A DNA stretch of 64,000 nt from the NCBI RefSeq assembly GCF_016862935.1, contig NZ_BONX01000003.1, forward strand, positions 248,001 through 312,000. The letters run 5' to 3'. The notes beneath the pieces were generated by a model, which saw only the letters and a program-made list of their open reading frames with translations, did not search any database and was not told where the DNA came from. Shown here one piece after another: positions 35,575 through 53,430 of the stretch; the stretch's first letter is position 1, and every line of letters starts with the position of its first letter. Position numbers and translations under genes: made by a program. The DNA is from Plantactinospora mayteni (GTDB lineage Bacteria > Actinomycetota > Actinomycetes > Mycobacteriales > Micromonosporaceae).

Positions 35575-36402
35575 CTACTCGGCCCCGGGGTCCCGGCGGC
35601 CCGGGCGGACGGCCGGCAGGGCGGGGGCGCGCAGCGCCCGGGAGATCCCCCGGGCGGCGGCCTGGACCACCGGGATCAGTCCGGCGCGCTGCGGGCGCGG
35701 TGCCCGGACCACGACCGAGACCGCGGCCACCACGTCGCCGGTCGGGCCGTACACCGGGGCGCCGATCGACAGCGCGTCCATGGTCACCTGCCGGTCGCTG
35801 ATCGCGATCCCGGTCCGTCTGACCTCCGCGAGCAACCGACGCAGTTCCCGGGCGGAGGTGATGGTCCGTTCGGTGAAGCGCTGCAACGGCGCGTCGAGCA
35901 CCGCCTCCTGCACCTCGGCCGGGGCGTGCGCCAGCAGCACCAGCCCGACACCGGTAGGCGGCATCGCGAACCGCCCGCCGACCCGGGTCAGCACCGGCAC
36001 CGCGCTGTGCCCGGCGATCCGCTCGACGTACACCACCTCGAGGCCCTCCCGGACGGCGAGCTGGACGTTCTCCTGGGTCACCTGGAACAGGTCCTCCAGG
36101 AACGGCAGTGCCGCCTCGCGGAGCCCGAGCCCGCGCGGTGCGAGCGAGGCGATCTCCCACAGCCGCAGCCCGATCCGGTAGCGACCGTCGGCGTCCCGTT
36201 CCAGCGCGCCCCAGCCGGCGAGGTCGTTGACCAGCCGATGGGTGGTGGTGAGCGGCAACCCGGCCCGGCCGGCCAGTTCGGTGAGGGTCAGCTCGCGGCG
36301 GTCCGGGGTGAACGCCTCGAGCAGCCGCAGCGCCCGCACGGTCACCGACCCTGTCCCCGACGGCGTCCCGCCCGGCACCGCCACCCCCAGCCCTCCCGCC
36401 AC
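35575..36402 (-). CDS. IclR-family transcriptional regulator
   Basis: 275 residues. The N-terminal winged helix (VRALRLLEAFTPDRRELTLTELAGRAGLPLTTTHRLVNDLAGWGALERD) is followed by the IclR effector domain (about 95-255: VQLAVREGLEVVYVERI, PPTGVGLVLLAHAP, GIAISDRQVTMDALSIGAPVYGP). IclR proteins usually sense an intermediate of the pathway they flank. It is transcribed in the same direction as, and 144 bp after, the Rieske/flavin oxygenase genes, so it is the likeliest local regulator. GTG start. Confidence 0.92.
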   Translation of the reverse strand: MAGGLGVAVPGGTPSGTGSVTVRALRLLEAFTPDRRELTLTELAGRAGLPLTTTHRLVNDLAGWGALERDADGRYRIGLRLWEIASLAPRGLGLREAALPFLEDLFQVTQENVQLAVREGLEVVYVERIAGHSAVPVLTRVGGRFAMPPTGVGLVLLAHAPAEVQEAVLDAPLQRFTERTITSARELRRLLAEVRRTGIAISDRQVTMDALSIGAPVYGPTGDVVAAVSVVVRAPRPQRAGLIPVVQAAARGISRALRAPALPAVRPGRRDPGAE

Positions 36403-36546: not shown

Positions 36547-37587
36547 TCAGAGGTCGAGCACGAGTTTCGGGGTACGGGACCGGGACACGCAGATCATCAT
36601 GGTGTCGTTGGCCGCCTGCTCCTCGTCGGTCAGCAGCGAGTCCCGGTGCTCCGGGATCCCGGCGAGCACCGGTGTCTCGCAGGTGCCGCAGGTCCCCTCC
36701 TGGCAGGAGGAGAGCACCGGGATCCCGGCCTCCTCGACGGTCTGGAGGATGGACCGGTCCGGTGGCACCGCCAGGGTCCGGCCGGACTGGGCGAGTTCCA
36801 CCTCGAACGACTCCCGGCGGACCGGTTCGGCGAAGGTCTTCGGCGCGAAGCGCTCGACCCGGAGCGTGCCGGCGGGCCAGTGCCGGCAGTTCGCCTCGAC
36901 CGCACCGAGCAGGGGTTCCGGGCCGCAGCAGTAGACCAGCCGGCCCGGGTCGGGCTCGGCGAGCAGCGCCGGCAGGTCGAGCAGCCCGGTCTCGTCCTGC
37001 GGCTGGATCGAGACCCGGTCGCCGTACCGGTCCCGCAGTTCGGTGCGGAACGCCATCGAGGTCCGGGACCGGCCGCCGTACACCAGCCGCCAGTCGGCAC
37101 CGGACGCCTGTGCGGCGGCCACCATCGGGACGATCGGGGTGATCCCGATCCCGCCGGCGATGAACAGGTACCGCTGCGCGGGGAGCAGCGCGAAGTGGTT
37201 GCGGGGCCCTCGGACGCGTACGGTCGCGCCCACCGGCAACCCGTCGTGCACGTACGCCGAGCCACCTCGACCGGCGCTCTCCCGCAGTACCGCGACCCGC
37301 AGCTCGGTACGGTCCGCCGGGTCGCCGCAGAGCGAGTACTGCCGGACGAGGTCGGGCCGGAGCAGCAGGTCGAGATGGGCACCCGGCTCCCAGGACGGCA
37401 GCGGTACTCCGCCGGGATGCCGCAGGTGGAGTACGACGACACCGTCGGCCGCCACGGTCTTCGCGGTCAGCAGCAGGTCGAGTTCGCCCTCACCGTCGGC
37501 GGGCGCGGCTGAGCCGTCGGCGGATTCGGCGCCGCCGTCGGCGGGGGTGGTCCGGGGGTTGGAATCGAGCTCGGTGTCGGTGGGCAT
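36547..37587 (-). CDS. phthalate-dioxygenase-reductase-type electron transfer protein
   Basis: 346 residues. A 35-residue acidic N-terminal extension precedes the FMN/NAD reductase module (RQYSLCGDPADR; GGIGITPIVPMV; VYCCGPEPLL). A C-terminal plant-type [2Fe-2S] ferredoxin domain follows, with CQEGTCGTC then a fourth Cys in MMICVSRS. This FMN-NAD-ferredoxin order is that of VanB/PDR reductases, which feed electrons from NAD(P)H to a Rieske oxygenase; here surely the enzyme at 37977. Confidence 0.93.
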   Translation of the reverse strand: MPTDTELDSNPRTTPADGGAESADGSAAPADGEGELDLLLTAKTVAADGVVVLHLRHPGGVPLPSWEPGAHLDLLLRPDLVRQYSLCGDPADRTELRVAVLRESAGRGGSAYVHDGLPVGATVRVRGPRNHFALLPAQRYLFIAGGIGITPIVPMVAAAQASGADWRLVYGGRSRTSMAFRTELRDRYGDRVSIQPQDETGLLDLPALLAEPDPGRLVYCCGPEPLLGAVEANCRHWPAGTLRVERFAPKTFAEPVRRESFEVELAQSGRTLAVPPDRSILQTVEEAGIPVLSSCQEGTCGTCETPVLAGIPEHRDSLLTDEEQAANDTMMICVSRSRTPKLVLDL

Positions 37588-37719: not shown

Positions 37720-37980
37720 TCAGGCGGGGACGGGTTGGCGGTCCGGGACCGCTCCGGTCGGTTCGTCGACCGGAGCGGGGTGCGCCGGGCGGTCCCCGCC
37801 ATGGCTGTCGGGGTGCGCGAGCAACCAGGCCCAGAGCGCGATCGGGTCCTCGGCGTCGTGCGAGTTACCGCAGAAGCAGAAGCCGCGCAGCCGGTCGGTG
37901 CCGAGCACCCACTCGACCCGGTAGACCCGGGGGCCGGTCAGCATCCGGCTGGGCGCACCGGTGCCGCTCCGGCCGGTCAC
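37720..37980 (-). CDS. small protein coupled to the Rieske oxygenase, 86 aa
   Basis: The GTG at 37980 overlaps the oxygenase stop (GTGA, 37977-37980), so translation is coupled. The folded part is short: MLTGPRVYRVEWVLGTDRLRGFCFCGNSHDAEDPIALWAWLLAHPDSHG, with a CxC pair and a His, then a Pro-rich tail. No known family. The position suggests an accessory factor of the oxygenase, e.g. iron or substrate handling, but this is inference. Confidence 0.7.
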   Translation of the reverse strand: MTGRSGTGAPSRMLTGPRVYRVEWVLGTDRLRGFCFCGNSHDAEDPIALWAWLLAHPDSHGGDRPAHPAPVDEPTGAVPDRQPVPA

Positions 37981-39029
37981 GACGTCACCGCGCCCTCCGG
38001 CCGGCTCCGCTCGGCCATCCGCTTGAGGATGCGGCGCGCCGCCAGGCCACCGGTGTCGATGTTGATGCTGAGTTCCTGGTAGCCGTCCGCCTCCTTGACG
38101 AGTACCTGTTCGAGGAGGTTGAGTGCGGTCACGTCCTGCATCACCACGGTGTGGTTGTTGGAGTGCAGGAACCGGGAGACCTCCTCGTCGTCGAGCGCGA
38201 AGTCCCGGGCGACGGCCCAGAAGTCGTACGTGGTGTTCTCGGTGGACGGGGTGATCGCGTACACCACCTCGACGTGGAACGCCTGGTCGTCCGGGCCCTC
38301 GGCCGGCGGGTGGACGCCCTGCGGCGCGATCCGGCTGTGCAGCAGGTAGAGGCACGGCGGGTGGTACTCGATGTCCTGCCAGCGGGTGATCCGGCCCTCG
38401 ATCCCGGTCGACTTGGCGTAGAACGGCGGGCAGGCGGCGTCGTCCATGTGCCGGCTCACGTAGACGATCCCGGAGTCCTCGTCGACCTCGGTCTGGATCG
38501 GCGTCTCGGCGACCTCGGGCGTGCCGATGTAGCCGCCGTGCAGGTAGGTCTCGTGGGAGAGGTCCATCAGGTTGTCGACCAGCAGCATGTACCGGGCGTT
38601 CAACGGCTCCATCCCGGAGACCGTGGTGTAGGCCGGGTCGGCCAGCCAGGGCGCCCGGGGAATCAACGCCGGGTCGGCCTTGGCCTTCTCGCCGATCCAC
38701 ACCCAGACGAACGAGTCCTGCTCCACCACCGGGTACGCCGCCACCCTGGCGGTACGCGGAATCCGCTGCTGGCCGGGGACGAAGACACAGGAACCGCCGC
38801 GGTCGTAGGTGAAGCCGTGGTAGCCGCAGACGATCGAGTCGCCGTCGAGCCGGCTCTCCGAGAGCGGGAAGCGCCGGTGTACGCACCTGTCGGCCAGTCC
38901 GACCGCCTCGCCGCCCTCGGTCCGGTAGAAGACGATCGGCTCGCCGAGGATCGTGCGGCCGAGCAGTTCCCGCCCGACCTCCCTGCTGTATGCGGCGACA
39001 TACCACTGGTCGCGTACGAAAGCCGTCAT
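37977..39029 (-). CDS. Rieske non-heme iron oxygenase (VanA-like)
   Basis: 350 residues from ATG 39029 (AAGGAG upstream). Rieske centre ligands: CVHRRFP and CGYHGFTYD (C-x-H, C-x2-H). Mononuclear iron site: the DNLMDLSHETYLHGG stretch (bridging Asp, then His-x4-His). This is the single-component-type oxygenase of vanillate/dicamba O-demethylases, which remove methyl groups from methoxylated acids or hydroxylate aromatic or sulfonated rings. Electrons come from the reductase at 36547. The true substrate is unknown. Confidence 0.92.
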   Translation of the reverse strand: MTAFVRDQWYVAAYSREVGRELLGRTILGEPIVFYRTEGGEAVGLADRCVHRRFPLSESRLDGDSIVCGYHGFTYDRGGSCVFVPGQQRIPRTARVAAYPVVEQDSFVWVWIGEKAKADPALIPRAPWLADPAYTTVSGMEPLNARYMLLVDNLMDLSHETYLHGGYIGTPEVAETPIQTEVDEDSGIVYVSRHMDDAACPPFYAKSTGIEGRITRWQDIEYHPPCLYLLHSRIAPQGVHPPAEGPDDQAFHVEVVYAITPSTENTTYDFWAVARDFALDDEEVSRFLHSNNHTVVMQDVTALNLLEQVLVKEADGYQELSINIDTGGLAARRILKRMAERSRPEGAVTS

Positions 39030-39147
39030 GGCGACTCCTTGGAGAAGCGGCGGATCTTCTCCTCGGAGCATGTCGAGCGCTCCGCCGGCCGGGAAGTACG
39101 TCTTCCGGATAACGGAAGGGCGACTGCCGGTCGAGGTCACCGGGTGA

Positions 39148-40398
39148 CTACTCGTCCACGACGACCGGGGTCGGCGGGCGGCGGGCGAACGGCGGCGCGT
39201 GCTCGGGGCGTACGCCGATGCCGATCAGGTAGGCCGGGCCGAGGGACGCGAACGGGAACCGCCGGAGCAGGGCCAGTATCGGCCGGGGCGGTCCGGCCCG
39301 ACGCCGGTCGAGGATCGGTGCGACCAGGCCCCGGTGCATGAGCCGCTGCAACCGCTGCACCAGGATCGTCGGCAGCAGCCGTCGGGCGCGGACGCCCGCC
39401 AGTTCGGCGTCGGTCACCGTGCCGCGCCGGAGCGGCTCGGCGAGCAGGGTCGCGGCGGCCACCGCGTCCTGCACGGCGAGGTTGATCCCGACCCCGCCGA
39501 TCGGTGACATCGCGTGCGCGGCGTCGCCGAGGCAGAGCAGCCCGGGCACGTGCCAGCGGTCGAGCCGGTTCAGCCGTACGTCGAGATGCTTGACGTCGTC
39601 CATCGAGGCGATCGCGCCGACCCGGTCGGCGAAGCCGGGAGCCAGTTCGGCGATGTCCCGGCGGAACTGCTCGATCCCCCGGGCCCGGAGCCGCGCGTCG
39701 CTGCCCTTCCGGGCGATGTAGGCGATCTGGAGGTAACCCTCCCGGGGGATGACCACGGCGAACCGGCCCGGGCCGACCCGGGGGGTGAGCCCGGCCGGAT
39801 CGTCGTGCGGGTCGCGGGGCAGCCGGAACCACCAGGCGTCGATCGGCACCGGAAACTCCCGGACCGGCAGGCGGGCCTGGTCCCGGGCCAGCGACCACCG
39901 GCCGTCGCAGGCGACGGTCAGTTCGGCGCGCAGCTCACCGGTCTCGCCGTCCGGCCCCCGGTAGCGCACGCCCCGGACCCGGCCGTCCGACCGGATCAGC
40001 TCGGTCACCTCGGTCCGCATCCGCAGCGTGAACGAGGGCTCGGCGGCGCCGGCCTCGGCGAGCAGGTTGAGCAGGTCCCACTGCGGCACCATCGCGACGT
40101 ACGGATACCGGGTCTTCAGCCGGCGGAAGTCGGCGACGACGATCTGCCGCCCCGGCGCCAGCGGAAAGGCGACCTCGTCCAGCCGGCTCTGCGGCAGGGC
40201 GGCGAACCGCTCTCCGAGGCCCAGTTCGTCGAGGAGTTGCAGGGTGGACGGGTGCACCGTGTCGCCCCGGAAGTCACGCAGGAAGTCGCCGTGTTTCTCC
40301 AGCACCGTCACGTCGACGCCGGCCCGGGCCAGCAGCAGCCCGAGCACCATCCCGGCCGGTCCACCGCCGACGACGACGCAGGTCGTGTGCCCGTCCAT
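39148..40398 (-). CDS. FAD-dependent monooxygenase (PHBH/UbiH type)
   Basis: 416 residues from ATG 40398, which has AAGGTGA six bases upstream. An in-frame ATG at 40416 lies inside a palindrome and has no ribosome site. Motifs: GGGPAGMVLGLLLARAGVDVTVLEKH (dinucleotide fold), the mid-protein CDGRWSLARD, and CLGDAAHAMSPIGGVGINLAVQDAV. Group A flavoprotein hydroxylases act on phenols and related rings using NAD(P)H. Together with the Rieske system it suggests an aromatic or quinoid intermediate. Confidence 0.92.
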   Translation of the reverse strand: MDGHTTCVVVGGGPAGMVLGLLLARAGVDVTVLEKHGDFLRDFRGDTVHPSTLQLLDELGLGERFAALPQSRLDEVAFPLAPGRQIVVADFRRLKTRYPYVAMVPQWDLLNLLAEAGAAEPSFTLRMRTEVTELIRSDGRVRGVRYRGPDGETGELRAELTVACDGRWSLARDQARLPVREFPVPIDAWWFRLPRDPHDDPAGLTPRVGPGRFAVVIPREGYLQIAYIARKGSDARLRARGIEQFRRDIAELAPGFADRVGAIASMDDVKHLDVRLNRLDRWHVPGLLCLGDAAHAMSPIGGVGINLAVQDAVAAATLLAEPLRRGTVTDAELAGVRARRLLPTILVQRLQRLMHRGLVAPILDRRRAGPPRPILALLRRFPFASLGPAYLIGIGVRPEHAPPFARRPPTPVVVDE

Positions 40399-40410
40399 CG
40401 CGATCACCTT

Positions 40411-40428
40411 ATTCATCAGACGATGAAT
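40411..40428. promoter_or_regulatory. operator-like palindrome ATTCATC-N4-GATGAAT
   Basis: Perfect 7-bp arms, 13 bp upstream of the monooxygenase ATG at 40398. AT-rich against the background and in the gap between the UGSC-partner gene and the oxygenase genes. Likely regulator binding site. Confidence 0.6.
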
Positions 40429-40528: not shown

Positions 40529-41671
40529 TCAACCTCCCGGAACGGGTACGACGCAGGGGCTGTCGCCCCTCGGCCCAAAGGTCTCCACCACGGCGGATAC
40601 GCCCGAGTTCGACGCCCCGGCGACCACCACCAGGACGGTCTCCGGCGACCTCAGCACGTGCACCCGACCATCGCCGACGGTCGAGTCGGGATCGATCTCC
40701 GCCTCGCGGTCCGGTACGGCATCCGGATGGTCGGCCGGTACCCGCCACCGGGACTTCCGGGAGACGCTCCCCTTGCCCACCCGGTCCAGTCCGGCCCGGC
40801 TGCGTACCGCCGCGCCGTGCACGAACTCGCGGATCCGGGGCTTGTCCCAGCCGGCCCCGGCGAGCAGGTGGGCGTGCTCCGGGCTGAGTACCAGGCAGGC
40901 ACTGATCGTCTCGTGCAGCAGCGCCCCGGTCCGGGCCACCGTGTCGGCGAAGTCCCGGAGCAACTGTTCCGGTACCCCGGTGTGCCGGGCCTCGACGTGC
41001 ACCACCGACCGGATCGTCATCGCGGTCACCGTGCTCTCCCCGGCCGCGAAGCCGTACTCCGCCGGCAGCGGCGCCCAGGGGCTCTCCTCCTCGTTCTCGG
41101 CGACGCAGAGGGTGTACTTCGCCGGCGTACCCTGGGTCGCCTGGTCGAGTTCCCGGGGGCGCAGGCCGAACGCGTTCAGCGCGGTGAGCCGGAGCGCCCG
41201 GCCGATCGTCGCGTTGGCCCGGAACCCCGGCCCGAAGACGTTCCCCCGGCTGTTCAGCCCGATCCGCTCCCGTACCGGGCCGTTCACCACCAGCATCGGG
41301 GCGGTACCGGTGGTGCTCTGCCAGATCCCCTTCGCGAGGTAGCCCTCGGCGGCCAGCGAGTCCCAGGCCGCCAGCACCACCGGAAAGTACTCCGGGCGGC
41401 AGCCGGCCATCGCGGCGTTCAGCGCGGCCAGCCGTACCGTGCAGTGCCGGTTGAGGTGCGGCATCGCGAACACCACGTCGTCCGGGCCGCGATCCGTCTG
41501 CGCCAGGAACCGGTCGAGCAGCGCCTGGTCACAGGGGACCACCGGCAGCCCGTCCGTCCAGCCGCGTTCGTAGCAGTACTCGATCGCGTCCTGCACGGCG
41601 GCGGGGTCCGGCACCCCGCCGCCGTCGGACCCGACCGGCACACCGGTCGTCGTCACTCCTCCGCCCGTCAC
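40529..41671 (-). CDS. UGSC-associated conserved protein
   Basis: 380 residues from GTG 41671, which overlaps the UGSC stop (GTGA). A second GTG at 41656 is also possible; both follow GGAGGA. The first residues are Gly/Val-rich, then conserved blocks: GWTDGLPVVPCDQ, AALNAAMAGCRPEYFPVVLAA, GTAPMLVVNGPVRERIGLNSRGNVFGPGFRANATIGRALRL, ATQGTPAKYTLCVAENEEESPWAPL. I recall this family beside UGSC (seleno)proteins, sometimes in one chain. Cysteines in VVPCDQ, MAGCRPEY and YTLCVAEN are candidates for redox or metal roles. Catalysis unknown. Confidence 0.8.
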   Translation of the reverse strand: MTGGGVTTTGVPVGSDGGGVPDPAAVQDAIEYCYERGWTDGLPVVPCDQALLDRFLAQTDRGPDDVVFAMPHLNRHCTVRLAALNAAMAGCRPEYFPVVLAAWDSLAAEGYLAKGIWQSTTGTAPMLVVNGPVRERIGLNSRGNVFGPGFRANATIGRALRLTALNAFGLRPRELDQATQGTPAKYTLCVAENEEESPWAPLPAEYGFAAGESTVTAMTIRSVVHVEARHTGVPEQLLRDFADTVARTGALLHETISACLVLSPEHAHLLAGAGWDKPRIREFVHGAAVRSRAGLDRVGKGSVSRKSRWRVPADHPDAVPDREAEIDPDSTVGDGRVHVLRSPETVLVVVAGASNSGVSAVVETFGPRGDSPCVVPVPGG

Positions 41672-42210
41672 TCCTCCACCCCCAGGATCTCCAGGATGCG
41701 CGGCGTCATCTGGACCACCCGCTCCCGAACCTCCACCAGGGTGAGGCTGGCGACCGGGTGCGGGGTCAGCAGATATTGGAAACCGGGGAAGCCGTAGGCC
41801 CTGGCCATGGCGTCGGCCGGAATCTTGAACGGCTCGGTGCAGATTGAGACCGCTGGGATGCCGCCACGTTCCAGCAGAATTCCGTCGGCCAAACTGGCCG
41901 CGCTGCACGAGCCTCAATCACCGATGGCGGCGATGGCGAAGTCACACTCCTGCACGATCCGCTCGGTCAGGGTCTGGTCCACCGGCGTGCCGAAGTACGA
42001 CTTGGTGTACATCACCACCTCGCGGACGCCGTACCGGTCGCGCAGGTGGTCGCCGATCTCGCCGAGCAGCACCGAACCGTTCGGCTTGCCGTTGTCCAAC
42101 AGGCCCAGGGTGGCGCCCCGCAGGCTGCCCAGCCGGGGCGCCAGGGTGGTGTCCGCACCCCGGTCCGCGTCACCGGTCGGGTCGAGGATCACCCCCGCCC
42201 AGTCAGTCAT
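41668..42210 (-). CDS. UGSC-family selenoprotein, in-frame UGA (Sec99)
   Basis: 180 residues if UGA at 41914-41916 is read as selenocysteine: ...ECDFAIAAIGD-U-GSCSAASLADGILLERGG... The part before UGA (LGLLDNGKPNGSVLLGEIGDHLRDRYG) and the part after it (IPAVSICTEPF, PHPVASLTLVEVRERV) are both typical of the family, in the same frame. The U-G-S-C motif gives the family its name; other members have Cys. A SECIS-like hairpin follows the UGA. ATG 42210 overlaps the stop of the upstream gene (ATGA), with GGAGGG upstream. A normal gene caller will split or truncate this. Role probably redox; substrate unknown. Confidence 0.88.
41874..41916 (-). promoter_or_regulatory. bacterial SECIS-like element after UGA
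   Basis: On the minus strand the UGA (41914-41916) is followed by 13 nt, then a stem CGGCC-AGUUU-GGCCG (41886-41900). The apical loop has G at its second position, 20 nt after the UGA. A lower helix GCAG/CUGC (41903-41906 with 41874-41877) is also possible. Stem length, early loop G and 16-37 nt distance agree with the published bacterial SECIS consensus. Confidence 0.65.
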
Positions 42211-42686
42211 GGTTTCCCTCCGTCCAGTCGCTGCCGCGGCACGGCACCGGTCTGCGGCCGGCCGCCCCTGGTCACCACGACCAGGCCGTTGTCGGCGTCG
42301 ACGCATACCCAGTCGCCGGTCTCGATCACGTCCAGCGGGTCCTGGTCGAGGTCGGTGACCGCCGGTACCCGGGTCACCACCACGCCGAGCGCGATCTTGG
42401 TGTTCATGTAGTTGAAGATCATCGCCTTCGGTGCCGACCCGGCCAGCCGCGACATGTGGAACATGCCGGACCAGCCGGAGGAGCCCTTCGCGCCGGGGAA
42501 GACCAGGATCCGGTCCCGGAACGACTGGCCGGCGAGTTCGTGCCGGGACTCGATGATCCGGCCGCCGGTCGGCTCGATGCCGCCCCAGCCGGAGATGCTG
42601 TCCCGGGTCACCAGCGCCTCGCCCTCGGCCACCCCGCCGACCAGCCCCCGGCCGTGCAGCGTGATGGTGCTGCCCGTCGCCGTCAT
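42207..42686 (-). CDS. aconitase X small (swivel) subunit, DUF126
   Basis: 159 residues. LHGRGLVGGVAEGEALVTRDSISGWGGIEPTGGRIIESRHELAGQSFRDRILVFPGAKGSSGWSGMFH is the swivelling domain typical of split AcnX enzymes. It pairs with the catalytic subunit encoded just upstream, overlapping it by 4 nt (ATGA at 42683-42686). AcnX enzymes are iron-sulfur dehydratases (cis-3-hydroxy-L-proline dehydratase, mevalonate-5-phosphate dehydratase). This context suggests another hydroxy-acid. Confidence 0.92.
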   Translation of the reverse strand: MTATGSTITLHGRGLVGGVAEGEALVTRDSISGWGGIEPTGGRIIESRHELAGQSFRDRILVFPGAKGSSGWSGMFHMSRLAGSAPKAMIFNYMNTKIALGVVVTRVPAVTDLDQDPLDVIETGDWVCVDADNGLVVVTRGGRPQTGAVPRQRLDGGKP

Positions 42687-43960
42687 CGCAGCTCCCCCTG
42701 CCAGCGGCCGGTCAGCGCCGACTCCACACACTCCGTGGTACTGCCGAACCAGCCCTGCACCTTCATGATCGCCGGCAGGTAGTGCACCTGCTTGGCCGAG
42801 TCGGTGGCGATCACCCGGGTTCCCTTCGGCAGGAACTGCCCGATCGCCGGGCAGGTGTCGCTCATCAGCAGCGCACCGGCGTCCCGGAGGATCTGGGCGT
42901 AGCCGTTCTGCTCGGCGACCTGCCGGATGGCGCGCGGGGTGAAGACCCAGAGCGCGCTGTCCGCGTGCACCTTCCGGCCCTGGACCAGCCGGCAGACGTC
43001 CCGGATCTGGCTCAGTGTCGCGTGTGGACACCCGATCATCACCAGGTCGACGTCGGTGTCCCGGGCGGTGTGGTTCAACTGCTCGTACGTCTGCCGCCGC
43101 TCGCGCTCCCCGTACCGGAGGGTCTGCACCGGCCGGCGCGGGCCGAACGCCTCCTCGACACTCCTGGCCTCCACGGTGGTGCCGGGGATGTGATACATCT
43201 CGACCCCGCCCGAGGAGGCGGCAGCGGCGCCGAAGTGCTTGAGCTTGACCAGGTTCGGCACCTCGGTGATGCCGTCCAGCACCGGCACCCCCTCCTGGAC
43301 CAGCTCACCCACGTAGTAGCCGAGCAGTCCCCAGTCCAGGCTGCTGCGCACCGGCTCGGCCACCTCGACCAGGTGGCTGCCGAACCGGTTCTCGGCCAGG
43401 TGATAGCCCCAGTACGGGATCCTGCCGGTCAGCATCGCCGCCGCCGCGCTCTCCCGACCCTCCACATTGGTCCGGGCGCCGAGCACCGAGTTGACGTAGA
43501 CCACCGCCGAGGACTCCATCCAGGCGCAGTGCTCCCCCTTCACCGGCACGTTCCCGACCTGGTACGGCGTGCAGGTGTTCATCAGGTGGATGCCGTGCCG
43601 GGCGCTGTACGACTCGGACTCCTCGATCGCGTCGTGCGCCTCCTGGCTGAGCCCCTGCACCTGCCAGTGCTGGGTGTCCATCGGCCCGATGAGCTGATAG
43701 CTCTGCGCCCGCATCGGAGTGATCTCCACCGGTTTCGGGCTGTCCAGGCTGAACTCCGAGAAGACCGCGTCCGGGCCGGCGTGCCCGCAGAGCTGCATCT
43801 GCCGGGGGCCGAAGATGTTGGCCCCGCAGACGTTGTCGGTCTCCACCAGGCGTTCGGCGCCGAGCACCTCGCCGTACCGGATCAGCAGGTCCATCGCGGC
43901 CTGGACGGCCTCGCCCTGCTCGCCGTCGCGCATCCGCCGCTCGTCGTCGGTCAACCGCAT
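42683..43960 (-). CDS. aconitase X catalytic subunit
   Basis: 425 residues from ATG 43960. AcnX signatures: LTDDERRMRDGEQGEAVQAAMDLLIRYGEVLGAERLV, VCGANIFG, NTCTPYQVGNVPVKGEHCAWMESSAVVYVNSVLGARTN, MIGCPHATLSQI, MSDTCPAIGQ. The conserved cysteines in these blocks hold the Fe-S cluster. It forms a dehydratase with the 42207 subunit. Type-I/II assignment and substrate cannot be told. Located between an FAD oxidoreductase and the UGSC selenoprotein in one transcription unit. Confidence 0.93.
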   Translation of the reverse strand: MRLTDDERRMRDGEQGEAVQAAMDLLIRYGEVLGAERLVETDNVCGANIFGPRQMQLCGHAGPDAVFSEFSLDSPKPVEITPMRAQSYQLIGPMDTQHWQVQGLSQEAHDAIEESESYSARHGIHLMNTCTPYQVGNVPVKGEHCAWMESSAVVYVNSVLGARTNVEGRESAAAAMLTGRIPYWGYHLAENRFGSHLVEVAEPVRSSLDWGLLGYYVGELVQEGVPVLDGITEVPNLVKLKHFGAAAASSGGVEMYHIPGTTVEARSVEEAFGPRRPVQTLRYGERERRQTYEQLNHTARDTDVDLVMIGCPHATLSQIRDVCRLVQGRKVHADSALWVFTPRAIRQVAEQNGYAQILRDAGALLMSDTCPAIGQFLPKGTRVIATDSAKQVHYLPAIMKVQGWFGSTTECVESALTGRWQGELR

Positions 43961-44002
43961 CGACCCGTCACCTCCTCCGCTCGGCCGGCCCGACACCGGC
44001 GC

Positions 44003-45361
44003 TCACCACGACGTCCCCAGGTACGCCCCGTCCTCGGTCAGCCGCTTCTGCAACCGCGCGACGTCGACCTCGCCGCCGGCCACCCCGGCGCCGAGCGCCA
44101 GGTCCGCCGCCGTACCGGCCGCCTGGCCCATCGCGAAACACGGGCCGGTGACCCGGGCCGACGACTGCCCGTCGTGGGTCATCGAGGCGCACCGGCCGGC
44201 GACGTAGAGGTTGGCCAGTCGCTGCGGCACGATCATCCGGAACGGGAGCTGGTTGAAGCCGCGCGGGTCGTCGCCGTTCGGCCAGCGGATCACCACGTCC
44301 CCGGCCACGTGCGCCTCCACCGGCCAGCCGTTCACCCCGATGGTGTCCGGGAAGTCGACACAGTCCAGGATGTCGTCGCTGGTGAGCTGGTACGGGCCGA
44401 CGATCCGCCGGGTCTCCCGGATCCCGATCGACGGGGCGATGTCGACCACGTACGAGTCGGCGAAGCCGGGGACCTGCTCCCGGAAGAACGGGAACTGGTC
44501 CCGGATCTGCCGCCGGCCCTGCAACTCGCCGAGGCTGAGCTGCTCCACGTCGGTGCCGTCGATCGCGCTGCCGTCCGGGTTGCTGAGCTGGGTCATGTTG
44601 GCCCGCCACTCCAGCGGGTTACGCTGCGGGCGCACGATCGGCTTCTTCCGGGCGAACCGGAACGTGCCGGCCCGCTCGGCGGCGTCCATCAGCTCGGGCA
44701 GCCGCTCCCGCTCCCGGATCGCCGTCTCGGCGTCCACCCCGTTGATCCGGAACATCAGCGACGGATACATCATCCCGGCGTCGGCCGGGGTCTTCTCGTA
44801 GGGCGCACCGGCCCAGGCGGCCAGGTCGGCGTCGCCGGAGCAGTCGACGAAGAACCGCCCGACGATCGCACCCCGGCCGGACTTCGACTCGACCAGTACG
44901 GCGTGCACGGTGTCGTCGGCGCCCATCAGCACCCCGACGGCGAGGGCATGGAAGAGCACCTTCGCCCCCGACTCCACCACCAGGTCGTCGGTGGCGATCT
45001 TGTACGCCGAGATGTCGTACGCCTGGGCCAGGATCCGGTTCTCGAAGGAGAGGTGTGCCGGATTCAGCCCGTCCAGCGCTGCCATCCGGGCCAGCAGGTC
45101 GTCGGCGAGCCCGTGGATCACCTGACGGTGCTCGCCGTGCACGTTGGCGTGCAGCCCGCAGAAGGTGCTCAGCCCACCGGCGCTGCCGGCCCCGCCGAGA
45201 TAGCCGTACCGCTCGATCAGGATGGTGGACCGGCCGGTCCGGGCTGCGGCGGCTGCCGCCATCACCCCGGCCGGTCCGCCGCCGAGCACCACCACGTCGT
45301 ACTCGCCGAGCACCGGGGTACGCCGCCCCGGCTCGACCAGTTCCCCGCTGCCGGACGTCAT
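44003..45361 (-). CDS. FAD-dependent oxidoreductase (FAD_oxidored family)
   Basis: 452 residues. Dinucleotide fold YDVVVLGGGPAGVMAAAAAARTGRSTILIERYGYLGGAGSAG. Mid part IVGRFFVDCSGDADLAAWAGAP, and C-terminal LYVAGRCASMTHDGQSSARVTGPCFAMGQAAGTAADLAL. Members oxidise hydroxy-acids or sugar derivatives, and several act beside dehydratases. ATG overlaps the stop of the IlvD/Edd gene (ATGA, 45358-45361), so the two are translated together. The conserved Cys in CSGDAD and GPCFAMG may be structural. Confidence 0.9.
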   Translation of the reverse strand: MTSGSGELVEPGRRTPVLGEYDVVVLGGGPAGVMAAAAAARTGRSTILIERYGYLGGAGSAGGLSTFCGLHANVHGEHRQVIHGLADDLLARMAALDGLNPAHLSFENRILAQAYDISAYKIATDDLVVESGAKVLFHALAVGVLMGADDTVHAVLVESKSGRGAIVGRFFVDCSGDADLAAWAGAPYEKTPADAGMMYPSLMFRINGVDAETAIRERERLPELMDAAERAGTFRFARKKPIVRPQRNPLEWRANMTQLSNPDGSAIDGTDVEQLSLGELQGRRQIRDQFPFFREQVPGFADSYVVDIAPSIGIRETRRIVGPYQLTSDDILDCVDFPDTIGVNGWPVEAHVAGDVVIRWPNGDDPRGFNQLPFRMIVPQRLANLYVAGRCASMTHDGQSSARVTGPCFAMGQAAGTAADLALGAGVAGGEVDVARLQKRLTEDGAYLGTSW

Positions 45362-47040
45362 CCCTTGTTCCCTTCTTCGGTCAGCACGGCACCCTCGGCC
45401 ACCGGGGTGACCAGTCGCTCGTAGATGGCGAGCCAGCCCTGCTCGCCGGAGTCCGGTCGGGGCCGGAACCGCTCGCGGCGCTCCGCGAGCACCTCGGCCG
45501 GGACCAGCAGGTCGACCGTGCGGGCGGCGACGTCGATCGCGATCGGGTCGCCCGCCTCGACCAGTCCCAGCGGTCCGCCGACGGCCGCCTCCGGGGAGAC
45601 CTCGGCGACCACGATCCCGGTGTTAACCAGCCCGGACATCTGCCCGTCGGTGACCACCGCGACCTGGTCGCCCAGCCCCGCCCCGTCCAGGGCGAAGACC
45701 ACCGCCGAGGCCATCCCCATCCCCGGGCCGCCCTTCGGGCCGAGTCCGGCCACCACCACCACGTGGCCGGGCCGGATCTGACCGGCGGCCAGCCCGGCCA
45801 GGGCGGCGTCCCGGCTGGGGTAGACGATCGCCCGGCCCTCGAACCGGGTCGGCCCCCGGTCGTCGACCGGTCGCTTCACCGCCGCACCGTCCGGGGCCAG
45901 CGAGCCGCGTACCACCACGATGCCGGGGCGGCGGCCGAGCGGGCGGTCGACCGGTCGGATGATCTCCTCGTCCGCGACCGTGACGCCGGCCAGCACCTCG
46001 CCGAGGGTCTGGCCGGTCACCGTACGGGCCGACAGGTGCAGTTGGCCGGCGAGCTGCTTCAGCACCGCCAGGGCACCACCGGCCGCCTCGAACTCCTCGA
46101 TGAAGTGCGGCCCGTTCGGCCGGATCGCGGCGAGCAGCGGCACCGCGTCGGCGTACCGCTCGAACAGCGCCGGGACGTCGACGGCGCGGCGCGCCTCGAC
46201 GGCGACCGCCTGGAGGTGTTTGATCGTGTTGACCGAGCCGCTCACCGCCAGCAGCACGGTCACCGCGTTCTCGAACGCCTCGACGGTGAGGATGTCGCTC
46301 GGCTTGAGCCCCTCCGCCACCATCGCGACGATCCGCTCGCCGGCCCGGCGCACGTCCGCCCACATCCGGGGGCTGTTCGCCAGCACCGGGGTACTGCCCG
46401 GCAGGGTCATCCCGAGCGCCTCGCTGGCGATGTGCATCGAGTTGGCGGTACCCATCCCGGCGCACACCCCCGGCCCCCGGATCGCGTTGTCGCTCATCTC
46501 GGTCAGGTCCGGCAGCGAGAGGTGCCCGGCCGCCACGTGACCGGCGGCGAGGAAGACCTCCTCGATGTCGACGTGCTCGCCCCGGAACCGGCCGCTCGGC
46601 TGGTAGCCGCAGCCGACCACGATGGTCGGGATGTCCAGCCGGGCCGCCGCCATCAACTGGCCGGGCGCGGTCTTGTCGCAGGAGGCCAGGCAGACCATCC
46701 CGTCCAGCAGCGCACCCTCGACCGCGACCTCGATGTCGTTCACGATCAGGTCCCGGCTGGGCAGGATGTACCGGCCGTCCCGGCCGGCGCTGGTGATGAA
46801 GTCGCTGGGCGCGGCGGTACGCACCTCGAACGGCACCCCGCCGGCGGCCCGGATCGCCTCCTTCAGCGGCGGCACGATGTCGTCCAGGTGGCTGAAGCAG
46901 ATCGCCAGGTTCGACGAGGAGTTGACGATCGCGATCTTCGGTTTCGTCATCTCCTCGTCGGTCAGCCCGAGGGCCCGCCACTGGGCCCGCCGGACGGCCC
47001 AGCGGGAACTGCCGACCGCGAGGTTGCTGCGCAGGGTCAT
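45358..47040 (-). CDS. IlvD/Edd-family dehydratase
   Basis: 560 residues. Fe-S dehydratase of the dihydroxy-acid/6-phosphogluconate/sugar-acid group: cluster cysteines in LAICFSHLDDI, CLASCDKTAPGQL and GPGVCAGMGTANSM; C-terminal GPKGGPGMGMASAVVFALDGAGLGDQVAVVTDGQMSG. ilvD for branched-chain synthesis would lie with ilv genes; here it is in a catabolic operon, so a sugar- or hydroxy-acid dehydratase is more likely. 24 bp after the SDR gene. Confidence 0.93.
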   Translation of the reverse strand: MTLRSNLAVGSSRWAVRRAQWRALGLTDEEMTKPKIAIVNSSSNLAICFSHLDDIVPPLKEAIRAAGGVPFEVRTAAPSDFITSAGRDGRYILPSRDLIVNDIEVAVEGALLDGMVCLASCDKTAPGQLMAAARLDIPTIVVGCGYQPSGRFRGEHVDIEEVFLAAGHVAAGHLSLPDLTEMSDNAIRGPGVCAGMGTANSMHIASEALGMTLPGSTPVLANSPRMWADVRRAGERIVAMVAEGLKPSDILTVEAFENAVTVLLAVSGSVNTIKHLQAVAVEARRAVDVPALFERYADAVPLLAAIRPNGPHFIEEFEAAGGALAVLKQLAGQLHLSARTVTGQTLGEVLAGVTVADEEIIRPVDRPLGRRPGIVVVRGSLAPDGAAVKRPVDDRGPTRFEGRAIVYPSRDAALAGLAAGQIRPGHVVVVAGLGPKGGPGMGMASAVVFALDGAGLGDQVAVVTDGQMSGLVNTGIVVAEVSPEAAVGGPLGLVEAGDPIAIDVAARTVDLLVPAEVLAERRERFRPRPDSGEQGWLAIYERLVTPVAEGAVLTEEGNKG

Positions 47041-47064: not shown

Positions 47065-47835
47065 TCACGCGTTCAGCGCCCCGTCGATCAGGTGGGTGGC
47101 GCCGGAGACGTAGCTCGCCTCGTCGGAGAGGAGCCAGGTCGCCAGGTGCGCCACCTCCTCGGCGGTGCCATACCTGGCCAGCGGCACCCGGGCCGCCGCC
47201 CGGTCGTACGCGCCCTGCGGGTCGTCCGGGGCCACCTGCACGGTCAGGTCCCGGGCCATCCGGGTGTCGATGTGCCCCGGCGCGACGGTGTTGACCCGGA
47301 TCCCGTACGGCGCACCCTCCAGCGCGGCACACCGGGTCAGCCCGATCACCCCGTGCTTCGACGCCACGTACGGGCTGAACGTCGCGCTGCCCCGGATCCC
47401 GGCCATCGAGGCGGTGTTCACGATCGCACCGCCGCGCTGCGCCTTCATCACCCGGAGCACCTCCCGCAGTCCCAGGAAGACGCCGCGCAGGTTCACCGCG
47501 ATCACCCGGTCGAAGTCGTCGACGCCGAGTTCGGTGATCGGGGCCATCCGCCCCTCGATGCCGGCGTTGTTGAAGAACGCGTCGATCCGGCCGTACGCCG
47601 CCACCGCCTCGGCGACGTACCCGGCGACCTCGGCCTCCTGGCTGACGTCCGCCCGGATCGCCCGGACCGGTCCGGTGCCGCCCAGCTCGGCGGCGGTGCC
47701 GGCCAGCGCCTCGGCGTCCCGGTCCACCAGCACCACCCGGGCGCCGTCGGCCAGCAGCCGCTGCCCCACCGCCCGGCCGAAGCCAGCCGCGCCGCCGGTG
47801 ACGACCGCCACCCGACCCTCGAATCTGCCTGCCAT
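47065..47835 (-). CDS. short-chain dehydrogenase/reductase
   Basis: 256 residues, classical SDR: VAVVTGGAAGFGRAVGQRL (NAD(P) binding), NNAG (as FNNAGIEG), catalytic Ser in NTASMAG, Tyr-x3-Lys as YVASKHG, C-terminal SDEASYVSGATHLIDGALNA. The acidic residue after the second strand (VLVDRDAEAL) favours NAD. Five bp after the next SDR gene. Likely oxidises an alcohol intermediate. Confidence 0.92.
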   Translation of the reverse strand: MAGRFEGRVAVVTGGAAGFGRAVGQRLLADGARVVLVDRDAEALAGTAAELGGTGPVRAIRADVSQEAEVAGYVAEAVAAYGRIDAFFNNAGIEGRMAPITELGVDDFDRVIAVNLRGVFLGLREVLRVMKAQRGGAIVNTASMAGIRGSATFSPYVASKHGVIGLTRCAALEGAPYGIRVNTVAPGHIDTRMARDLTVQVAPDDPQGAYDRAAARVPLARYGTAEEVAHLATWLLSDEASYVSGATHLIDGALNA

Positions 47836-47840
47836 CGCGT

Positions 47841-48755
47841 TCAGCTCGCCTTTCCGTTGACCGTCGGAGGATTCGTCCGCGCGACCGGGGGCACGCGATC
47901 GAGGACCGGGTTGGCCCGATCGAGAACCGGATTGGCCCGATCGAGGATGTTGCCGGCCCGCTCCCGGATCCGGTCGTCCCAGTCGGCGTCGGTCAGCGCG
48001 TACAACCGGTCTGCGCGGATCGCCGCGACCAGGTGTTCCGCGACCTCGGCCGGGGACATCCCCTCGGCCAGCCGGGCGTGCATCAGCTCCCGCTTGGACC
48101 GGCCGGCCACCGCACCCGGAGTCTCGGTCTCGTTGCGCAGCTCGCTCGGCCGGTTACGGCTGCCGAGGAAGAGGTTCGTCGCGATGGTCCCCGGGCAGAG
48201 CGCGGTGACCCCCACCGGTACGCCCCGGGTGCGCAGGTCGGCGTAGAGGGTCTCGGTCAGCGCCAGTACGGCGTGTTTGGTGATGCCGTACATGTTGGAC
48301 GGACGGGTCACCGCGGTCATCGAGGCGGTGTTCACCACGTGCCCGCCCTCGCCGTGCGACAGGATCAGCGGGAGGAAGGTCCGCACCCCGTAGACCACGC
48401 TCCAGAAGTTGACCCCGACGGTCCAGGTCCAGTCCCGGTCGGTCGCCTCCCAGATCGCCCCGTCGAGATAGCCCTCGACTCCGGCGTTGTTGCAGATCAC
48501 GTGCACCTTGCCGAACGCCTCGACCGCCCGGTCGGCGAGGTCGCGCACGGCCGCCGGGTCGGAGACGTCGGTGCGTACCCCGACGACCTGGTGGCCGTCG
48601 GCGGTCAGCTCGGCGACCGCCCGGTCCAGCGCGTCCGCCTGGACGTCGGCCGCGACGACCCGCATGCCCTCCTCGGCGAAGCGCTGCGCGAAGGCCCGGC
48701 CCATCCCACTGCCGGCGCCGGTCACCACGGCGACCCTGTCCCGGAACTCCCTCAC
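47841..48755 (-). CDS. short-chain dehydrogenase with repeat-bearing C-terminus
   Basis: 304 residues from GTG 48755 (GAGGGAG upstream); longer in-frame extensions run through intergenic repeats and are rejected. SDR motifs: VAVVTGAGSGMGRAFAQRF, CNNAGVEGYL, NTASMTAV, Tyr-x3-Lys as YGITKHA. The tail continues about 40 residues beyond the SDR core and holds a tandem repeat, DRANPVLDRANPVLDRVPP, caused by a short duplication in the DNA (about 47893-47945). Confidence 0.9.
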   Translation of the reverse strand: MREFRDRVAVVTGAGSGMGRAFAQRFAEEGMRVVAADVQADALDRAVAELTADGHQVVGVRTDVSDPAAVRDLADRAVEAFGKVHVICNNAGVEGYLDGAIWEATDRDWTWTVGVNFWSVVYGVRTFLPLILSHGEGGHVVNTASMTAVTRPSNMYGITKHAVLALTETLYADLRTRGVPVGVTALCPGTIATNLFLGSRNRPSELRNETETPGAVAGRSKRELMHARLAEGMSPAEVAEHLVAAIRADRLYALTDADWDDRIRERAGNILDRANPVLDRANPVLDRVPPVARTNPPTVNGKAS

Positions 48756-48812
48756 CTGACTCCCTCCCGCTCCCCGCCCACGCCCGGCCGCCGGCCGGGC
48801 ACGCTCTCGACC

Positions 48813-48953
48813 CCGCCGCCGGTCATGGCCGTCCACCGACCAGGCACACTCCCGATCCCGCCGCCGGTCACGGCCCTCCACCGACCAGGCACACCCTCGA
48901 CCCGTCGCCGCCGCCGACCAGTCACGCCCGCGCCCCCGCCGCCGGTCACGGCC
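48813..48953. repeat. 45-bp repeat reaching a gene stop codon
   Basis: Units start at 48813 and 48858 (CCGCCGCCGG...), with a diverged piece and the original block at 48936. The block contains the stop codon of the alcohol dehydrogenase gene (complement, 48946-48948). So the 3' end of that gene has been copied into the gap before the SDR gene. Confidence 0.85.
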
Positions 48954-50982: not shown

Positions 50983-51872
50983 CGCATCCTCGCTTCGATC
51001 TCGGCGCGAGCCCGGTCGCGCTGTTCCGGGGTCAGATGGCCGAGGTGCCAGGACTGCGGCGACTCCTCCATCATCGCCAGGCCCTTGCCCTTGCGGGTCC
51101 GGGCGACCACGCAGACCGGCCGCCCCTCGCCGACCGGGGGCAGCGCGTCGAAGGTCGCGCAGAGCGCCGCCACGTCGTGCCCGTCCACCTCGACCGCCTG
51201 CCAGCCGAACGCGGTGAAGCGGTCGGCGACCGACTCGATGTCGATGGCGTCGGAGGTCGGCCCGTGCCCGGAAAAGCCGTTCGCGTCGACGATCGCGACC
51301 AACCCGCCGCCGAGCCGGTAGTGGCCGGCAGCCATGATCGCCTCCCAGACCTGCCCCTCCTGGATCTCGCCGTCGCCGGTGAGTACGAAGGTGCGGTAGT
51401 CCCGCCCGGTCAGCCGGCCGGCCAGGCTCATGCCCAGCCCGACCGAGAGGTTGTGGCCGAGCGACCCGGAGCTGAAGTCGACACCGGGGGCGAGCCGCAT
51501 GTTCGGGTGGTCGTTGAGCGGGCTGCCGAGCTGGCCGAACGTCTCCAGCCACTCCGCCGGGTAGTAGCCGAGGTCGGCGTAGACCGGCCAGAGCCCGGTC
51601 GCGACGTGTCCCTTGCCGAGCAGGAACCGGTCCCGGTCCGGCCAGTCCGGCCGGCCCGGGCGCAGCCGCAGGGTGTGGTAGTAGAGCACCGAGAAGATCT
51701 CCGCGCAGGAGAAGGTGCTGGAGTAGTGGCCGAGGCCGGCCTGGTCGATCAGGTCTATCGTGCGCAGCCGGATCCAGTCCGCCCGCCGGGCCAGTTCGGC
51801 GTGGCCGACCGGCCGCCCCCGCTCCAGTTCCTTTGTCGTCCCGCTGCCGGGTATCTCCGCCGTTGCTGTCAT
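50979..51872 (-). CDS. transketolase N-terminal subunit
   Basis: 297 residues. Thiamine-diphosphate module: ...[61 protein letters not shown] and [35 protein letters not shown]-type ThDP/Mg motif (as GDGEIQEG...DANGFSGHG). Transfers a two-carbon ketol unit. ATG overlaps the aldehyde dehydrogenase stop (ATGA). Confidence 0.93.
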   Translation of the reverse strand: [297 protein letters not shown]

Positions 51873-53362
51873 CGCCCCATCCCTGTCGTCCGCGCACCGC
51901 GAACTTCTCGCGCCGGCTCGCCGGCGGTCACGTACATCGACTTGACGTTCTGGTAGGAGGCGATCGCCTCGGGGCCGTTCTCCCGGCCCAGCCCGCTGGC
52001 CTTGTAGCCGCCGAACGGGGCGGTGACATCGGGCGCGTAGCCGTTGATCCCGATCGTGCCGGTCTGGATCCGGCGGGCGACCGCCAGCCCGTGTTCGAGA
52101 TCGCCGGTGAAGACGCTGCCGCCCAACCCGTACGCCGAGTCGTTGGCGAGCGCGACCGCCTGCTCCTCCCCGTCGTACGGCAGTACGCAGACCACCGGTC
52201 CGAAGATCTCCTCCTGGGCGATCCGGGACCGGTTGTCGACGTCGGCGAAGACCGTCGGGGTGAAGTAGAAGCCCCGGTCCCGCCCGGCCGGTCGGCTCCC
52301 GCCGGTGACCAGCCGAGCGCCCTGGTCGAGCCCGTTCGCGACGTACTCGGCGACCCGGTCCCGCTGCCGGGCGCTGACCAGCGGACCCATCGTGGTGCGC
52401 TCGTCCAGCGGGTCGCCGAGGACGAACCGGTCGGCGACCTCGCGCAGCGCGTCGACCAGCTCGGCGTACCGGGAGCGGGGGGCGAGCACCCGGGAGAGCA
52501 GGAAGCAGGTCTGCCCGGCGTTGCCGAACGAGCCGATCGTCAACTGCCCGGTCACGGTGTCGAGGTCGGCGTCCGGCAGCACGATCGCGGCCGACTTGCC
52601 GCCCAACTCCAGCGACACCGGCCGGAGCAGTTCGCCGCAGATCGCGCCGATGGCCCGGCCGGCCGCGGTCGAACCGGTGAAGGCGATCTTGTCCACTCCC
52701 GGGTGCCGGACCAGCAGCTCCCCGGTGTCCCGGCCGCCCGGCACCAGGTTGAGCACCCCGGCCGGCAGCTCCGCCGCCTCGGCGGCCTCGGCCAGTAGGT
52801 AGGCGTCGAGCGAGGTCTCCGCCGCCGGCTTGATCACCACCGCGCAGCCCGCGGCGAGGGCCGGGGCGAGCTTGGCCATGGTGAGCGCCTGCGGATAGTT
52901 CCACGGCACGATCAGCCCGACCACCCCGACCGGCTCGTGGCGTACCACGGTGTGGCCGGGGCGCATCGCCGCCGGGCGTACCTGCTCGGTCGCCCCTTGC
53001 CGGGTCAGCTCGGCGTAGTAGCGCAGTACGCCCACCGGCCGCAGCACGCTGTAACGGCGGGAGACCGCGAGCGGCTGCCCGATCTCCCGACTCACCAGCC
53101 GGGCCAGCTCGTCGGCACGGGCCTCGATCGCGTCGGCGAGCCGCTCCATGGCCTCGGCCCGCTCGGTCGCCGTACTCCGGCCCCACTCCCCGGCGTCGAC
53201 GGCCTGGCGGGCCGCGCGTACCGCCGCGTCGACGTCCCGCGCGTCACCCCAGGGCGCCGAGCCCAACGGCTGCTCGGTGCTGGGGTCGACCAGGGTGACC
53301 GTCCGGTCGGACGCCGGTGGCTGCCAGGTGCCGGCCCGGAAGACGGCGGTCCTGGTCAGCAT
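51869..53362 (-). CDS. NAD(P)-dependent aldehyde dehydrogenase
   Basis: 497 residues from ATG 53362. Motifs: PWNYPQALTMAKLAPALAAG, FTGSTAAGRAIG, catalytic Glu in LELGGKSA, catalytic Cys in GNAGQTCFLLSR, C-terminal EIFGPVVCVLPYD and PFGGYKASGLGRENG. Oxidises an aldehyde to acid. First gene of the leftward operon running to 40529, preceded by a strong palindrome at 53431. Confidence 0.94.
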   Translation of the reverse strand: MLTRTAVFRAGTWQPPASDRTVTLVDPSTEQPLGSAPWGDARDVDAAVRAARQAVDAGEWGRSTATERAEAMERLADAIEARADELARLVSREIGQPLAVSRRYSVLRPVGVLRYYAELTRQGATEQVRPAAMRPGHTVVRHEPVGVVGLIVPWNYPQALTMAKLAPALAAGCAVVIKPAAETSLDAYLLAEAAEAAELPAGVLNLVPGGRDTGELLVRHPGVDKIAFTGSTAAGRAIGAICGELLRPVSLELGGKSAAIVLPDADLDTVTGQLTIGSFGNAGQTCFLLSRVLAPRSRYAELVDALREVADRFVLGDPLDERTTMGPLVSARQRDRVAEYVANGLDQGARLVTGGSRPAGRDRGFYFTPTVFADVDNRSRIAQEEIFGPVVCVLPYDGEEQAVALANDSAYGLGGSVFTGDLEHGLAVARRIQTGTIGINGYAPDVTAPFGGYKASGLGRENGPEAIASYQNVKSMYVTAGEPAREVRGARTTGMGR

Positions 53363-53430
53363 CGGGTCCGCTCTCGAAGCGGAGTTCCCACTGTTCTCCT
53401 CTCCATCGGCCCGCCGCCGGCCCGGCTCCA

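Follow-up and report, generated by a model that had tools for sequence, protein, structure and literature searches.

The minus strand of the window (the whole 64-kb stretch of DNA that was analyzed) carries at 41668..42210 a gene of 180 codons plus a stop codon, which begins at ATG 42210-42208, ends at TGA 41670-41668, and is crossed at codon 99 (41916-41914) by an in-frame UGA that is followed by 81 codons. The UGA codon encodes U99 of a G-D-U-G-S-C motif and aligns with the Cys of homologues. Translation with TGA read as U reproduced exactly the coordinates, the codon count, and the placement of the UGA within U-G-S-C of the original prediction, which had given no strand. A single PF24696 match spans the UGA (residues 8 to 177, E value of 6.7e-60, 202.6 bits with a cut-off of 25), and the protein scores 150.7 bits with NF041046 (cut-off of 125). 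In an alignment of 39 members (U shown as C), U99-G-S-C102 occupies the conserved motif site, column 102 being invariant and column 99 >90% conserved; this alignment was made without the eight partial or weak hits that have loci, all hits without a locus, and the UGA loci L050, L055, L058, L059, and L065, which are part of the hairpin and covariation sets. As had been anticipated, standard ORF calling breaks the gene into two pieces, 41914..42306 (130 amino acids [aa]) and 41668..41892 (74 aa).

This gene is an unremarkable new member of an already known selenoprotein family, described as PF24696, as NF041046 ("UGSC family (seleno)protein"), and as the "UGSC-containing protein" of PMC2398784, with which, in the accessible portions of that paper, it shares the sequence, the UxxC motif, the alternation of selenocysteine (Sec) and Cys, the SECIS element, and the domain fusion (Unknown_1). 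UGSC stands fifth (255 selenoprotein genes) in Table 2 of that 2008 marine survey, and the available text of a 2026 review describes the functions of such families as largely uncharacterized (PMC13188914). The window gene differs from the family as described in its position within an aconitase X operon and in the presence of two Sec paralogues in one genome; nothing takes it outside the family.

All of its neighbors lie on the minus strand. Upstream are genes for two short-chain dehydrogenases (SDRs; 47841..48881, PF00106, and 47065..47835, PF13561), an IlvD/Edd-type dehydratase (45358..47040; PF00920, 334 bits), an FAD-dependent oxidoreductase (44003..45361; PF12831, 362.4 bits), and the large (42683..43996; PF04412, 390.6 bits) and swivel, or small (42207..42686; PF01989, 87.0 bits with a cut-off of 27), subunits of aconitase X. 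The stop codon of the small-subunit gene overlaps the UGSC start as ATGA, and GGAGG lies just 5′ of the UGSC gene. Downstream follow a partner protein of ~375 aa (40529..41671), an FAD-dependent hydroxylase (39148..40416; PF01494, 218.5 bits), a Rieske oxygenase with a VanA C-terminal domain (37977..39140; PF00355 and PF19112), and an oxygenase reductase with ferredoxin and NAD-binding domains (36547..37587; PF00111 and PF00175). From their spacing, the genes from 48881 to 36547 are probably cotranscribed as one operon, next to which lies the gene for an IclR-type regulator (35575..36402; PF01614, 117.3 bits). The FAD-dependent oxidoreductase and the IlvD/Edd-type dehydratase are also found at a second UGSC locus of the same genome.

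Selenocysteine machinery and purifying selection

The source assembly (9.84 Mb, 99.97% complete), in which the window occupies C3:248001-312000, contains the full set of selA, selB, selC, and selD, whose absence the original prediction had named as evidence against itself. tRNA-Sec (74.6 bits, anticodon TCA) is encoded at C22:33956-34047, and selA (392.1 bits), selB (300.7 bits), and selD (393.0 bits), all above their NCBIfam cut-offs, lie together on contig C9; by inspection, SelD is of the Cys type. The 64-kb window itself holds no tRNA, and searching all of it with Rfam at the gathering threshold gave no match; around the UGSC gene, a search at an E value of 1 returned just two chance-level hits. 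In the 8 stretches of the genome that matched formate dehydrogenases, no TGA stood in frame.

Among 300 genomes of the host's bacterial family, 13 had a UGSC protein scoring above the cut-off, as did 27 of 396 genomes of the phylum, one in-frame TGA being present in 36 of the 46 rows listed. Of the 26 genomes that have a UGSC row with one TGA, 25 have a tRNA-Sec of >55 bits, compared to 7 of the 12 without such a row (11 Cys, one TCC; P value of 0.008); the 55-bit threshold was chosen after tRNA-Ser had been seen to score up to about 50, and the table does not include the weak UGSC hits of G435, G115, G495, and G569. The single exception, G025, is 80% complete and has a UGA-form UGSC gene with no tRNA-Sec of >55 bits. 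The description of Sec use as patchy in Actinobacteria fits this case only in part, because the Rfam tRNA-Sec cut-off was reached in 250 of 300 genomes of the host's bacterial family, a count that is an upper bound since some tRNA-Ser pass.

A second TGA-bearing UGSC gene of the source genome (C7:58258-58767) is 70% identical to the window gene. Among six other genomes drawn from the genus, two (G058 and G092) contain UGSC and four gave no UGSC match. Both orthologues of the window gene are intact, 92% identical to it, and keep the TGA; the decay that the original prediction had proposed looking for in close relatives turned up in the other paralogue alone, at locus L087 of G092, where two UGSC fragments and a split FAD oxidoreductase remain and the partner is gone. 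Among the three genus orthologues, dN/dS was 0.13 to 0.19 upstream of the UGA and 0.13 to 0.30 downstream, values that indicate purifying selection on both sides of the codon. For the second-paralogue pair, dN/dS was 0.05 upstream and 0.15 downstream; in this pair, dS is 0.73 upstream of the UGA and 0.28 downstream, a drop that does not occur among the three window-gene orthologues. Less favorable to the selenoprotein reading is the comparison with the distant G025 gene, with crude dN/dS values of 0.51 to 0.89 upstream and 0.30 to 0.64 downstream. The reading of the UGA as a real stop in an interrupted or decaying gene, which could appeal to the split by standard ORF calling and to the decayed G092 paralogue, we consider highly improbable in view of the TGA kept by the orthologues and the paralogue, the dN/dS downstream of it, the conserved SECIS element, and the presence of the Sec machinery.

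The SECIS hairpin and the Sec codon

The region 41884..41902 (minus strand) can form the hairpin CGGCCA-GUU-UGGCCG, with an AGU-U apical motif, the loop GUU 19 nucleotides (nt) past the UGA, and the core stem CGGCC/GGCCG at 41900-41886. The stem-loop that had been predicted right after the UGA was borne out by position, motif, and covariation; by itself, it has no greater stability than shuffled sequences. Folding of a 43-nt piece gave a z score of −0.26 (74 of 200 shuffles as good), and folding of a 62-nt piece gave +0.83 (161 of 200 as good). What makes the hairpin significant is its position, its motif, and its covariation among relatives, not its single-sequence stability.

In a first set of loci, the loop of the best hairpin lay 18 to 19 nt after the UGA in 26 of 27 UGA genes. 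Covariation was scored in 26 of these 27 genes (25 distinct; L068 was dropped). The 8-bp stem was formed in 91.5% of cells, compared to a shuffle mean of 79.1 (0 of 500 as high), and the covariation score was 0.287, compared to a shuffle mean of 0.075 (0 of 500 as high) and 0.144 for the best slid control. Changes on both sides occurred in four stem pairs, a less decisive result, as 37 of 500 shuffles reached four; two of these pairs rest on six sequences each, all from the Micromonosporaceae clade, and most double changes in the stem come from one clade.

In a set of 80 partner loci, the Sec site was readable in 79 (all but L168) and read TGA in 61, TGC in 17, and TAG in 1. An [A/G]GTnT loop was present in 55 of the 61 TGA genes and in none of the 17 TGC genes (Fisher P value of 1.6e-12, related genes not being independent), so that the comparison with Cys homologues that the original prediction had called for also set the UGA forms apart by this motif. 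Six UGA genes lack the strict motif: those at L150, L154, L160, and L171 have loop variants, and that at L122 and one copy at L152 have no AGU. At the seventh codon past Sec, 78 of 84 UGA/UAG forms (20 of 22 plus 58 of 62) and no Cys form have AGT (Ser); ten genes of the operon use AGT for only 8 of their 176 Ser codons. The fixed loop position and the motif were selected after the first set had been seen and replaced raw hairpin energy, which had discriminated between UGA and Cys genes in the first set (27 versus 16; P value of 2.7e-4) and failed to do so in the second (61 versus 17; one-sided P value of 0.91). The two sets have one contig in common, that of L104 (the same as G025:C393), and a check for further overlap found none. 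On these comparative grounds, we identify the hairpin after the UGA as a SECIS element.

In Geodermatophilus ruber (L106), the Sec codon is TAG, followed by the same hairpin, and the only RF01852 match of >50 bits in that genome scores 66.6 and has the anticodon CTA. The joint change of codon and tRNA-Sec anticodon provides strong independent support for Sec at the UGSC site. Many bacteria leak at UGA, and a near-cognate or suppressor tRNA could in principle read the codon as Trp or Cys without selenium. Such readthrough would account neither for this joint change nor for a fixed AGU loop motif that occurs in UGA/UAG genes and that the tested Cys genes all lack, and we give it hardly any credence. 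The UAG/CUA pairing for UGSC in Geodermatophilaceae is itself already known: the available text of PMC5330540 reports, citing Mukai 2016, a CUA tRNA-Sec together with UGSC-motif selenoproteins in that family.

A tree of 116 UGSC rows was built with the Sec column masked and with L104 and the short L107 left out; it comes from a quick search, and several long branches are unsure. The window gene falls in a ten-row all-Sec clade (starred, support of 98) with Geodermatophilus and Pseudonocardia genes, and Cys genes of Microbacterium, Nonomuraea, and Agromyces lie just outside it. Within the clade, the window gene and G. ruber L106 share one five-row fork (support of 94); the two have the same SECIS hairpin, but the G. 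ruber gene uses UAG/CUA whereas the window gene uses UGA/UCA. The tree requires at least nine Sec/Cys changes in either direction (10 with the TCC row), compared to a shuffled mean of ~30, and the starred branches force 6.

The PF24696 and NF041046 matches across the UGA, the Sec machinery, the selection, and the SECIS motif together support the identification as a UGSC-family selenoprotein with an in-frame UGA. From this sequence evidence, minus-strand 42210..41668 is very probably an intact selenoprotein gene whose UGA is decoded as Sec, under SECIS direction, by the genome's own tRNA-Sec(UCA), SelA, SelB, and SelD.

An adjacent partner protein

The gene immediately downstream (40529..41671) could start at GTG 41671, which would overlap the UGSC stop codon as GTGA, or at GTG 41656. 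Its domain of ~340 residues matched no Pfam or NCBIfam family, and 20 members searched at an E value of 1 gave scattered hits only. The partner lies beside UGSC in 21 of 22 UGSC loci, the exception being the decayed L087. Conversely, in the best 80 partner loci of at least 577 relatives (among at least 589 pattern matches), a UGSC match was found within the stretch covered in 77 and lay within 1.5 kb in 75; none was found within that stretch at L112, L162, and L178, and UGSC lies ~5 kb away at L163 and L167. On sequence evidence, UGSC and this adjacent partner form a conserved pair.

Other neighbors vary. By tblastn, the best 80 partner loci included 6 with the FAD oxidoreductase, 6 with IlvD, and 2 with aconitase X. 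Among 73 neighboring ORFs scanned (hand-picked from 121, all in L104 to L135), 13 were zinc alcohol dehydrogenases, 7 SDRs, and 5 luciferase-like proteins. Since the neighbors vary, the constant unit is UGSC plus the partner. These counts also bear on the idea that UGSC is an accessory of aconitase X or IlvD-type dehydratases, acting in metal or cluster maintenance or in selenide handling. Its gene does overlap that of the aconitase X small subunit, and the FAD oxidoreductase and IlvD are common to both UGSC loci of the genome, but aconitase X and IlvD are rare at partner loci compared to UGSC, and an accessory role appears improbable.

At L100, a Cys-form UGSC and the partner are fused in one ORF, and a UGSC/Unknown_1 fusion is reported in the accessible text on the Global Ocean Sampling (GOS) selenoproteome (PMC2398784); from the L100 fusion, it is plausible that the partner is the GOS domain Unknown_1. 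The partners at L093, L096, and L098 have an N-terminal CxxC domain with weak Pfam hits, mostly thioredoxin (Trx)-like (E values of 0.016 to 0.15, below the cut-offs). We also considered the partner as a PF09338 pyruvoyl subunit and rejected this at a profile probability of 0.2%. Foldseek searches with its predicted fold (pLDDT of 81.3) gave a best E value of 5.4e-5 (fumarate hydratase, TM-score of 0.26), and the best Z score was 6.8 over 87 residues.

Predicted fold, GrdB/PrdB kinship, and possible function

An AlphaFold2 model of UGSC with Cys in place of Sec (pLDDT of 91.7) forms a five-stranded alternating alpha/beta domain in which Sec99 follows strand 91-97 and precedes helix 100-115. 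The closest solved folds listed were a designed protein, AerR (B12-binding), PIWI, receiver, and TIR (Z scores of 8 to 10.5); among the Foldseek rows listed, no query-normalized TM-score reached 0.5. The predicted fold thus resembles that of receiver and flavodoxin domains, which is widespread and does not in itself indicate a function. No Trx-like row appeared among the matches listed, and PDB sequence searches with the UGSC protein, the UGSC alignment, and a GrdB-like alignment returned chance-level rows only.

Profile comparison aligned the Sec half of UGSC with short Sec-containing GrdB/PrdB-like proteins at a score of 47.8 and a probability of 91% (44.8 and 88% in another run). With UxxC masked, the score was 46.2, and shuffles reached at most 24.1. 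GRDB genes adjoining PF09338 (two partial rows of twelve left out of the profile) gave a score of 37.8, a probability of 71%, and a masked score of 35.3, with shuffles at or below 27.6. Yardstick profile pairs scored 12.6 to 27.0; E values of such pairwise comparisons are not database E values, and the homology spans 61 to 79 columns. The alignment places Sec on Sec; next come an E-x-G-I-P-strand pattern and a P-x-P turn. At these profile scores, the Sec region of UGSC is remotely homologous to GrdB/PrdB, a distant kinship. UGSC had no match at an E value of 0.01 with PF07355, the family of the Sec subunits of glycine, betaine, and D-proline reductases, and PF07355 was absent from the 14 families hit by the 39 members at an E value of 10; the pyruvoyl subunit PF09338 had no match in the source genome, and the partner is unrelated to it. 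Because UGSC does not match the PF07355 model and the pyruvoyl partner is lacking, we do not file UGSC in the GrdB/PrdB family itself. The accessible portions of the open-license PMC literature yielded no statement of a UGSC-GrdB link, nor any of the partner beyond the Unknown_1 fusion.

According to the available text of PMC13188914, GrdB is the subunit that binds the substrate and releases NH3, and PrdB is its homologue. We tentatively suggest that UGSC, with its partner, plays the part that the Sec subunit has in GrdB/PrdB-type reductases. Sec99, at the strand/helix junction of the receiver-like alpha/beta domain, would attack a substrate held together with the partner and so cleave or reduce a carbon-heteroatom bond; it would then form a selenenylsulfide with Cys102, to be reduced by a Trx-type donor, such as the Trx-like domain that three relatives appear to carry as a fusion to the partner. 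GrdB and PrdB function in anaerobes and the source actinomycete is presumably aerobic, which counts against this mechanism.

UGSC might instead be a general thiol/selenol oxidoreductase, or a peroxide or disulfide reductase, with no specific substrate, a role that we regard as rather doubtful. Its UxxC motif would suit such a role, as would the apparent Trx-like fusions at three partner loci, and UGSC is named with Trx-like selenoproteins in the available text of PMC2398784 ("likely Trx-like fold," 2008) and of PMC13188914. However, the nearest listed folds of the model are receiver, B12-binding, TIR, PIWI-like, and designed proteins, the profile kinship points to GrdB/PrdB, and the near-constant partner and catabolic-type neighbors suggest a specific substrate.

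If UGSC does act as a GrdB/PrdB-like reductase, the pair might, more conjecturally, serve one step of a catabolic operon that includes aconitase X, the IlvD-like dehydratase, two SDRs, and the Rieske and FAD oxygenases. Put more broadly, and as tentatively as the mechanism itself, UGSC and its partner could be a new two-component Se-dependent reductase, a minimal GrdB/PrdB branch with no pyruvoyl subunit and a different substrate-activating partner, which would have spread among Actinomycetota, Pseudomonadota, and Chloroflexota as a mobile unit that lets catabolic operons cleave bonds reductively.

The gene is thus a selenoprotein of a cataloged family that plain ORF calling splits. What it adds on UGSC are two new clues, the usual adjacent partner and the distant kinship to amino acid reductases of anaerobes. 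The function of UGSC becomes testable through the near-constant partner, the remote kinship to enzymes whose chemistry is known, and the recognizable dehydratases and oxygenases of the operon.

Selenoprotein genes of the source genome

None of the eight stretches matched by formate dehydrogenase alpha in the source genome (G000) contained an in-frame TGA, and the two UGSC genes are therefore the only selenoprotein genes identified there, in a search narrower than a full selenoproteome survey. The second UGSC gene lies on contig C7 (G000:C7:58258-58767; L021:7759-8277), at a locus that also encodes the partner protein, an FAD oxidoreductase, IlvD, and an 83-amino-acid protein with Cys. In one relative from the same genus (G092), the second UGSC locus (L087, contig C8) is decayed: UGSC is reduced to fragments, the FAD oxidoreductase gene is split, and the partner is absent.

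Sec codons and gene pairing in the UGSC family

The Sec-site codon of the Geodermatophilus ruber UGSC gene is UAG (L106:7765-7767), and this species encodes a tRNA-Sec with anticodon CUA (L184:1501-1596), which ARAGORN labels tRNA-Pyl. UAG/CUA decoding of Sec is already known in this family, according to PMC5330540. Another UGSC gene (L122:2693) has UGA and lacks the SECIS motif; in the UGSC tree it is sister to a 17-row group whose members all carry Cys. Decay, a very recent change, or a sequencing error are alternative explanations for this UGA. UGSC was not found in the stretches examined around the partner genes of L112, L162, and L178, the first of which holds a tandem pair of partner genes.

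Short GrdB/PrdB-like selenoproteins

Nine Actinomycetota genomes encode short GrdB/PrdB-like selenoproteins with the motif U-P-x-C (L072-L083), and the site codon is UGA in 11 of these 12 genes. The PF09338 pyruvoyl subunit was matched in 15 of 396 genomes listed, none of them among these nine.

Genes around the UGSC gene in the window

Gene callers could be misled by a spurious 462-amino-acid ORF with a TTG start (40529..41917, minus strand), which extends from around the UGA into the gene for the partner. Upstream of the operon, genes for an aldehyde dehydrogenase, an NMT1-type ABC transporter, and a CoA-transferase pair (51869..59886) possibly provide uptake and downstream steps.
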